A stretch of DNA of 39,409 bases from Helicobacteraceae bacterium (GTDB lineage: Bacteria; Campylobacterota; Campylobacteria; Campylobacterales; SZUA-545): positions 1 to 39,409 of the forward strand of contig JAITUT010000036.1 in assembly GCA_031286325.1 (NCBI GenBank), in the 5' to 3' direction. Numbering within the stretch: position 1 is the first letter of the stretch; each line of letters begins with the position of its first letter. Made by a program: the position numbers and the translations under genes. Positions 24,543 through 27,188 of this stretch are shown here, one piece after another. The notes under the pieces are model-generated. The model saw only the letters and a program-made list of their open reading frames with translations, was not told the DNA's origin and ran no database searches.

Positions 24543-27188
24543 ATGGAAAAGCGGATTAGGTTTTTGATCTTCGGCGCGGTGCAAGGCGTGGGCTTTCGCC
24601 CGTTTGTATTTAGGCTGGCGAACGAGTTGCAAATCGCGGGATCGGTGCGCAACGACGGCTTTGGCGTGGAGATAGAGGCTCAGGCGGATTTTGAGACTTT
24701 ACGGATTTTCAAGGAGCGGCTGATCGCGGAAAAGCCGCCGCTTGCCGTGATAGCGCGTTTAGAGGAAACTGAAATCCCGCTTAAAAACAACGCGATCGCG
24801 GACGAACATCAAGCGGATCGAACCGAATTGTCGCCTCAAATTTTAGGGCAAAAGAGTATTGTTAAAGATAAAATATTTAGCAAAATGAAACGTCTTAAAT
24901 GGTTTTTACTTTTATTTATTTTTGGCGTTTTTATTTTTTCGCTTTCGGAAATAATATCTTATTTAATGAATCCGAACAGTTATATGTTGGGTTCGGAGGC
25001 GATGATTGCTCACGGCGATTTTAGGTATAAAAGCGCGGAAACATTCATATTTTTTTATTCCGCGTTGATCGCGATTTCTCTATTTGCCGCGATCATATTA
25101 TTTAGCCGAAAAAAAACAATTAAAAACTCTGCGATCGTGATCGCGAATAACGCAAAGCAAAGCGCGATTTTCACAATAGACGAAACCCAAAATTCGGAGG
25201 CGATCACCACGCATTTGCCGCCCGACACCGCGATCTGCGCAGAGTGTCTCGCCGAAATGCGCGACTTTAAAAACCGCCGATTCCGCCACCCATTTATCTC
25301 CTGCACGAATTGCGGTCCGCGCTACACGATCGCCCGCGAACTGCCCTACGATCGCGCCGCGACCGCGATGAGCGACTTTCCTATGTGCGCCGCCTGCCTC
25401 TTTGAATACGAAAATCCGCTTGACAGGCGATTTCACGCGCAACCGATCGCGTGCAACGAATGCGGGTCGCGAGTGGTTTTGTTGGACGCAAATCGTGTTG
25501 AAAGGGCGCGAGATTTTGACGCGATCAAAGGCGCGGCGGATGCGATCCTGCAAGGCAAGATCGTGGCGATCAAAGCGCTTGGGGGTTTTCAGCTCTGCGC
25601 CAATGCGCGAAATTATGCCGCGTTAAAGTTGCTCCGTGATCGCAAAAGCCGCCCTGCGAAACCTTTCGCGATCCTCTGCGCCGACCTCGCCGCCGCGCGG
25701 ACGATCGCCGAAATTAGCGAGGCTGAAGCGGAATTTTTGACTGCGCCGAGCCGCGCGATCACGCTCCTGAAAAAGGGCGCGAACTATGATTTGAGTCATC
25801 TCGTCGCCCCTGAAATTGATCGCGTGGGGATTATGCTGCCCTCCGCGCCGATTCAGTTTATTTTAATGGAAATTTTGCAAAGTTGCCGAAATGAGGCTGG
25901 ATCGGGCGCGCAAATTGACGCAATTGTCGCGACCAGCGCGAACCTTGCCGAATCGCCGATCGCGCGGAGCGCGGCGGAACTTTTCGCGGAACTTGGCGGC
26001 GTCTTTGACTGCGTTTTAGATCACGATCGCGAGGTGATAAACGCGGCGGACGACTCGGTTTTGCAAGTCGCCGAAATTCAGGAAATTGGCAACATAGAAA
26101 CCGCCGCAAAATTCCAGCCGATCATAATCCGCCGCGCTCGCGGCTTCGCGCCGCAGGCGATCGCGTTGCCCGCGAAACTCGCCGAGCCCACGCTGGCAGT
26201 GGGCGCGCAGCAAAAATGCGCGATCGCGATCGGCTTTAGCGATCAGGCGGTTTTGAGCCCGCACATCGGCGATTTGTTTTCCGTGAGCGCGCAGGAGTAT
26301 TTTGAGCGCGCGATTGCGGCATTTAAACGTCTTTATCGCTTCGAACCCGCCCGCGTGGTCGCTGACGCGCACCCGCAATACGCCTCTACGCGCTGGGCGC
26401 TCGCGCGCGGTCTTCCCACCGCGCGCGTTTGGCACCACCACGCGCACGCGCTCGCGGTTATGGCTGAATTTCAGCTTAAAGCGCCCGTTCTGGCGATCGC
26501 GTGGGACGGCGCTGGTTACGGCGCGGACGGCGCGATATGGGGCGGCGAAATTCTGATCGCAAATTACGATAATTTTGAGCGCGTCGGGCATTTAAGAGAT
26601 TTCGCTTTAATCGGCGGCGAAAACGCTATTAAAAATCCTGAAAAAATCGCGGCTGGATTGTTGTATGAATTGCAAATTTCTTCGCCGATTTTAACTGAAA
26701 ATTTTGCAAAAATGATCGCAAATAAAATTAACTCGCCGCGCACGACTTCTATGGGTAGATTATTTGACGCGATCGCGTATTTAAGCGGCATTCTTGAAAG
26801 TTACGGATTTGACGGGCAAAGCGGTTTAATGATAGAAAAATACGCCGATCCCAATGAGCTGGATTCTTATCATTTTGCAGTTGAAAACGGAGTAGTTGAT
26901 TATGCGGGAATTGTACGCGGGGTTTTGCGCGATCGCAAACTTAACGTAGATCGCGCGAAAATCGCCGCGAAATTTTTAAATACATTAACCGAGATCGCGG
27001 CGTTTTTCGCGGAAAAATATAATTTGCCGATCGTCCTTTGCGGCGGCGTATTTCAAAACAAAACCCTAGCGATCAAAGTGATTTCGTGTTTAACCGCGAT
27101 GAAAAAGCAAGTTTATTTGAGCCGCAAACTCCCGCCAAATGACGGCGCGATCGCGATCGGGCAGCTTGCGTTTTTAATCGGGCGATAA
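24543..27188 (+). CDS. hypF: [NiFe]-hydrogenase maturation carbamoyltransferase HypF with membrane-hairpin insertion
   Basis: HypF makes the thiocarbamate on HypE that becomes the CN ligands of [NiFe] hydrogenase. The domains are acylphosphatase (about residues 1-80, VQGVGFRP), two zinc fingers (about 232-310, CAEC/CTNC and CAAC/CNEC), YrdC-like (about 330-510) and Kae1-like carbamoyltransferase (about 540-881) with HHHAHA. At 881 residues it is about 110 longer than usual. The excess is an insertion at about 84-196 with two transmembrane helices (about 119-141, 166-188) between the acylphosphatase domain and the zinc fingers. Basic residues flank both helices on the cytoplasmic side, so the two HypF parts would remain cytoplasmic. 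No other hyp or hydrogenase genes are nearby. There is no ribosome site before the ATG. Confidence 0.95.
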   Translation: MEKRIRFLIFGAVQGVGFRPFVFRLANELQIAGSVRNDGFGVEIEAQADFETLRIFKERLIAEKPPLAVIARLEETEIPLKNNAIADEHQADRTELSPQILGQKSIVKDKIFSKMKRLKWFLLLFIFGVFIFSLSEIISYLMNPNSYMLGSEAMIAHGDFRYKSAETFIFFYSALIAISLFAAIILFSRKKTIKNSAIVIANNAKQSAIFTIDETQNSEAITTHLPPDTAICAECLAEMRDFKNRRFRHPFISCTNCGPRYTIARELPYDRAATAMSDFPMCAACLFEYENPLDRRFHAQPIACNECGSRVVLLDANRVERARDFDAIKGAADAILQGKIVAIKALGGFQLCANARNYAALKLLRDRKSRPAKPFAILCADLAAARTIAEISEAEAEFLTAPSRAITLLKKGANYDLSHLVAPEIDRVGIMLPSAPIQFILMEILQSCRNEAGSGAQIDAIVATSANLAESPIARSAAELFAELGGVFDCVLDHDREVINAADDSVLQVAEIQEIGNIETAAKFQPIIIRRARGFAPQAIALPAKLAEPTLAVGAQQKCAIAIGFSDQAVLSPHIGDLFSVSAQEYFERAIAAFKRLYRFEPARVVADAHPQYASTRWALARGLPTARVWHHHAHALAVMAEFQLKAPVLAIAWDGAGYGADGAIWGGEILIANYDNFERVGHLRDFALIGGENAIKNPEKIAAGLLYELQISSPILTENFAKMIANKINSPRTTSMGRLFDAIAYLSGILESYGFDGQSGLMIEKYADPNELDSYHFAVENGVVDYAGIVRGVLRDRKLNVDRAKIAAKFLNTLTEIAAFFAEKYNLPIVLCGGVFQNKTLAIKVISCLTAMKKQVYLSRKLPPNDGAIAIGQLAFLIGR
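24781..25137 (+). repeat. direct repeats bounding the HypF insertion
   Basis: TTAAAAACAACGCGATCG (24781-24798) and TTAAAAACTCTGCGATCG (25120-25137) match at 15 of 18 positions and start 339 bases apart, exactly 113 codons. Removing one copy plus the intervening DNA leaves a 768-residue HypF, the usual size. Confidence 0.6.

Follow-up and report, generated by a model that had tools for sequence, protein, structure and literature searches.

A lineage-specific in-frame insertion predicted to form a membrane hairpin in the hydrogenase maturation enzyme HypF of a Helicobacteraceae bacterium

Introduction

HypF is commonly regarded as a cytosolic enzyme. It has an internal tunnel through which carbamate leaves the acylphosphatase site and reaches the YrdC site; from there it proceeds to the Kae1-like site, where the C-terminal cysteine of HypE is carbamoylated (PMC6022934). 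We analyzed a hypF gene from a Helicobacteraceae bacterium that is encoded on a contig of 39,409 nucleotides (JAITUT010000036.1), the whole of which is referred to as the window in the following. A short linker without membrane segments between the acylphosphatase domain and the zinc finger is a usual trait of HypF, although catalysis does not require it, and the HypF of the window departs from it. An incomplete search of the literature returned no report of a membrane-anchored HypF, which is weak evidence of novelty.

Results

In the window, hypF is one unbroken frame (Table 1), whose product scores 687 bits with the NCBIfam model TIGR00143 and thereby passes the curated HypF threshold of 466 bits. 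The domain order of HypF, as assigned with Pfam, is kept, with the acylphosphatase domain followed by zf-HYPF from residue 231, YrdC at residues 334-511, and two HypF_C domains up to the end. Every column that is invariant in an alignment of 30 HypFs, catalytic as well as zinc-binding, is also kept, including the acylphosphatase residues R19 and N37 and the zinc-finger cysteines C232, C235, C254, and C257. The own-genome search found a single hypF in a genome that is estimated to be 98% complete. As the window HypF groups in the tree as sister to six other HypFs of its genus, the gene seems to have been inherited vertically, and the insertion described below appears to have arisen on its own lineage. 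The terminal branch of the window HypF is about twice as deep as those of its sisters (0.58 versus roughly 0.3). In the same-genus genome G002 as well as here, hypF has hisIE and a DUF2393 gene in its vicinity. Compared to same-genus HypFs, two additional insertions of ~12 aa were seen at ~25884-25922 (residues ~448-460) and ~26076-26114 (residues ~512-524).

Table 1. Positions of hypF, its domains, the insert with its predicted membrane segments and terminal repeats, and hypE. Positions refer to the window unless a contig is named.
Feature	Position	Strand	Basis
hypF, carbamoyltransferase HypF, 881 aa	24543..27188	+	TIGR00143, Pfam domains, one copy by own-genome search
Acylphosphatase domain, residues 6-83	24558..24791	+	PF00708 6.6e-19; VQGVGFRP motif
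Direct repeat, left copy, 15/18, offset 339	24781..24798	+	sequence comparison, chance test
7/8-bp match AACGCGAT / AGCGCGAT, left copy	24789..24796	+	codon listing, aligned insert boundary
Species-specific in-frame insert, ~124 codons, ends uncertain by few codons	24792..25163	+	G006 alignment, linker spacing
Predicted TM helix 1, residues ~120-139, after KDKIFSKMKRLK	24900..24959	+	KD 2.37, dG-like -1.16, N-terminal model
Predicted periplasmic loop, residues 140-167, short helix	24960..25043	+	between TM1 and TM2; H144-156 in model
Predicted TM helix 2, residues ~168-187, then SRKKTIK	25044..25103	+	KD 2.60, dG-like -1.69, N-terminal model
Direct repeat, right copy, 15/18, offset 339	25120..25137	+	sequence comparison, chance test
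7/8-bp match AACGCGAT / AGCGCGAT, right copy	25161..25168	+	codon listing, aligned insert boundary
First HypF zinc finger, residues 231-263, intact	25233..25331	+	PF07503 4e-31
hypE, with species-specific ~41-aa insert	L065:1288-2415, contig C22	-	comparison with family HypEs

The genome encodes in one cluster the small subunit of a hydrogenase with a twin-arginine-type leader, the large subunit with both cysteine motifs (RICGVC and DPCxxC), a cytochrome b, and a maturation protease that was recognized by eye; hypD is close to this cluster. As this membrane-bound hydrogenase operon is intact, hypD and hypE are present, and there is no second hypF, the window copy is presumably in use. A working HypF is also to be expected because E. 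coli without hypF forms no active hydrogenase (PMC3283652). hypE is found on contig C22 beside a HypB-like ORF, and its product still ends with PRIC. Directly before this C-terminal tail, HypE has an insert of ~41 residues that contains a GGCGAYTTGCGATC direct repeat and is absent from 11 family HypEs. HypE is unusually divergent: in the tree, the sister species lies nearer to a HypE from another genus than to the HypE of the window genome.

The global alignment with HypF of the same-genus genome G006 resulted in a net insert of 124 aa after residue 83, corresponding to 372 nt. An initial annotation of the window had proposed an in-frame insert of ~113 residues between the acylphosphatase domain and the zinc finger; its place and frame proved right, whereas its size has to be corrected. 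The comparison with related HypFs that had been suggested at that time gave a clear picture: the distance between the GxGFR and CxxC motifs is 217 residues here versus 90-95 in 29 HypFs of the genus, family, and order, all of which are devoid of the insert. Three named public records, two of which are the same contigs as relatives already compared, have a distance of 94-95 residues. No same-genus or same-family HypF found to carry both domains had the insert. When the uninterrupted HypF N-terminus was used as query in a sample of 150 genomes of the phylum, 147 genomes matched, and among the full-length matches listed only the window HypF was split, at query residue 84; genome G199 matched the query in part only. 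The insert is unique among the relatives examined and real in the assembly, and it is known from a single genome, which is one MAG of 96 contigs. By its lengthened linker, this otherwise normal HypF is a variant form of the enzyme.

At the ends of the insert, the initial annotation had recognized imperfect direct repeats of 15/18 bases exactly 339 bases apart. These repeats are real, as none of 400 random pairs from the neighborhood at distances of 300-420 was as good. However, the 339-nt repeat is not the exact unit of the insert, which has a net size of 372 nt by alignment, and the view that removal of one unit restores a HypF of standard length has to be given up, as 768 aa are left with a linker that is still 11 residues too long (same-genus HypFs have ~729 aa). 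The core of the direct repeat, CGATCGCG, belongs to the over-represented word GCGATCGCG, for which 40 strand-hits were counted in the window versus 4.4 expected, an about nine-fold excess. The shorter matches AACGCGAT and AGCGCGAT coincide with the insert ends as given by the alignment and are separated by exactly 372 nt. Either the 15/18 repeat or this 7/8 match might represent a target-site duplication. GCGATCG occurs with a frequency of about one per 734 bases. As a side aspect, the palindrome GCGATCGC is strongly over-represented in the window (e.g., at 24791-24800) and in sampled contigs, with one copy per ~1.3 kb, an abundance that may be seen as reminiscent of cyanobacterial HIP1.

The 372 nt of the insert are free of stop codons in the hypF frame only, with 6-10 stops in each of the other five frames, and none of 5000 base shuffles left it open. 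Its use of synonymous codons does not stand out from the contig, with 89 of 334 window blocks scoring lower, and its GC content of 0.36, versus ~0.55 in the flanking hypF parts, is as low as that of neighboring small or membrane genes on the contig. For the scoring of transmembrane segments, we used a damped hydrophobicity scale, with per-residue values after the Hessa scale and an end-damping of our own. The two transmembrane helices with basic flanks that had been noticed initially were thereby supported as predictions, with Kyte-Doolittle (KD) values of 2.4 and 2.6 and scores of -1.2 and -1.7, compared to lowest scores of +2.46 (29 other HypFs) and +6.0 (remainder of the window HypF). The positive control, cytochrome b of the hydrogenase encoded in this genome, scored about -1.4. 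As K/R residues are frequent in both outer flanks of the hairpin but not in the loop, the positive-inside rule points to an N-in/C-in topology. Structure prediction agreed with the two helices: AlphaFold, run without alignment on the N-terminal part, placed two long helices over the transmembrane segments at confidences that range from fair to high (pLDDT of blocks up to 94-95). The full-length model, based on a 4-sequence alignment, was too poor for use, with a mean pLDDT of 47, and is silent on docking. A PDB fold search with residues 1-225 had HypF and acylphosphatases on top and gave no structural relative of the hairpin.

To the origin of the insert, the searches gave no lead. There was no homologue in its own genome at the DNA or protein level, and none in same-genus genomes, wider genome contigs, plasmids, or phages. 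In 399 genomes of the order, only weak matches of 24-36% were obtained, nearly all of which extended across stop codons, and Pfam, NCBIfam, and PHROGs contained no credible match. The best NCBIfam match, to an oligosaccharide repeat unit polymerase, was dismissed, as it had 18 bits at a cut-off of 40 and looks like noise caused by membrane composition, and an own-genome DNA match on contig C86 was a short AT-rich stretch. A dispersed repeat behind the VIANNAKQS end of the insert was rejected, as this end is single-copy, and so was a dispersed palindromic or MITE-like element, as the genome has no further copies of the insert. Also the 25-mer at the right end, searched with up to 3 mismatches, did not occur a second time in the genome. 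The only RNA element in the window is a tRNA-Ser.

We also surveyed in-frame insertions elsewhere by global alignment of 78 orthologue pairs with G006, covering about 340 kb of the genome. Insertions of at least 20 aa were found 10 times (in 6 proteins) in the window genome versus 2 times in the reverse direction. As several of these are in low-complexity or contig-end proteins, this excess is only suggestive. The HypF insert is the longest and the only hydrophobic insertion of the sample (KD 2.6; next 0.7), and GCGATC words are not consistently present at the edges of the others. Other genes of the genome (L083, L088, L092, and L095) exceed their G006 counterparts by in-frame insertions of 20-44 aa, which may hint at a general tendency.

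Discussion

Our preferred reading, which we regard as reasonably probable, is that a HypF that is normal in other respects became attached to the inner membrane through a lineage-specific insertion, with its catalytic parts remaining in the cytosol. In this scenario, an insertion on one lineage would have put ~124 codons in frame into the acylphosphatase–zinc finger linker of the sole hypF, and the encoded segment would form a two-helix hairpin in the inner membrane, N-in/C-in and joined by a short loop in the periplasm. On the cytosolic side, flexible arms of roughly 30 residues (before TM1) and 15-20 residues (after TM2) should be long enough for the acylphosphatase domain still to dock on the rest of HypF. 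The catalytic core would be unchanged and cytosolic, and HypF would be held at the inner membrane. We infer membrane insertion, topology, and retained activity, and an active, inner-membrane-anchored HypF would be the likeliest product. Against this reading stand the occurrence of the insert in one MAG, the poor full-length model, the deep terminal branch of the window HypF, and the internal tunnel of HypF, which an insertion in the linker could disturb.

It is conceivable that the surface linker acquired a hairpin-coding sequence through illegitimate recombination, for which short GCGATC-type matches may have served, and that this sequence is near-neutral; in this case, the hairpin may be cleaved, may fail to insert stably, or may do no harm. 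We consider this unlikely, but it is a serious rival because the genome has other in-frame insertions, including the one in HypE. The asymmetry of 10 versus 2 insertions in the survey, the species-specific HypE insertion with its GGCGAYTTGCGATC repeat, the frequency of GCGATCG, and the relative divergence of HypF and HypE in this species all agree with such a capture. However, the other insertions are not hydrophobic, several of them affect proteins of low complexity or at contig ends, GCGATC words are inconsistent at their edges, and a neutral hairpin would be expected to anchor the protein, too, which is why this explanation overlaps in part with the preferred one. The long branch or low identity of HypF and HypE and the insertions in both would also fit a hypF/hypE pair that is under relaxed constraint or decaying, in which case the insert would mark an enzyme that loses its function. 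This is very improbable in view of the intact hypF frame with all invariant residues, the PRIC end of HypE, and the large subunit with its two cysteine motifs.

A chimeric join during assembly or binning, which would have brought foreign sequence into hypF, has an even slighter chance. Such an artefact is suggested by the fragmentation of the MAG into 96 contigs, by the GC difference between insert and flanks, and by the lack of an insert homologue elsewhere in the genome, but no codon is missing on either flank, the insert keeps the reading frame and falls into a domain linker, an artefact would require two joins, and the GC content and codon usage of the insert are like those of neighboring small or membrane genes of the contig. 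An extra in-frame segment within an intact host protein could finally be an intein or another self-removing protein element. Known mini-inteins are longer than the ~124-aa insert, the insert is not within a conserved active-site motif and consists of a hydrophobic hairpin instead, and Pfam and NCBIfam gave no intein match; we therefore rejected this explanation with near certainty.

If HypF is anchored, as we prefer, a selected tethering role is possible, but we consider it more likely that the insertion is tolerated and anchors the enzyme by chance. The insert occurs in one genome and shows no conservation that would point to selection on the hairpin. Either the HypF/HypE pair co-evolved, or the lineage tolerates in-frame insertions. 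It appears improbable that the anchored HypF and a matching ~41-residue extension of HypE, ahead of its carbamoylated tail, together constitute a tethered maturation site, by which synthesis of the cyanide ligand would be placed at the inner membrane, close to the hydrogenase exported via Tat. A HypF that is anchored by nature would offer a direct way to test whether hydrogenase maturation works, or works better, at the membrane, and it would show that the acylphosphatase–zinc finger linker tolerates a large insertion. If the insertion is merely tolerated, it would be a clear case in which a soluble enzyme became a membrane protein through one insertion.

Among known systems, small repeated palindromic elements of the Rickettsia type are in-frame insertions into coding sequences. 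The window insert resembles them in that a conserved protein carries it in frame where an insertion is tolerated, and it differs in that neither the whole insert nor its right-end 25-mer has dispersed copies. The closest known counterparts of the protein itself are the described HypFs (TIGR00143; PDB 3vth, 3vti, 4g9i, 3tsp), with which the window HypF shares the domain order and the residues that are invariant in 30 HypFs. Its gene is likewise a single copy that is present alongside hypD, hypE, and a membrane-bound NiFe hydrogenase. In contrast to all HypFs compared, the window HypF adds a predicted transmembrane hairpin of ~124 aa in the linker.
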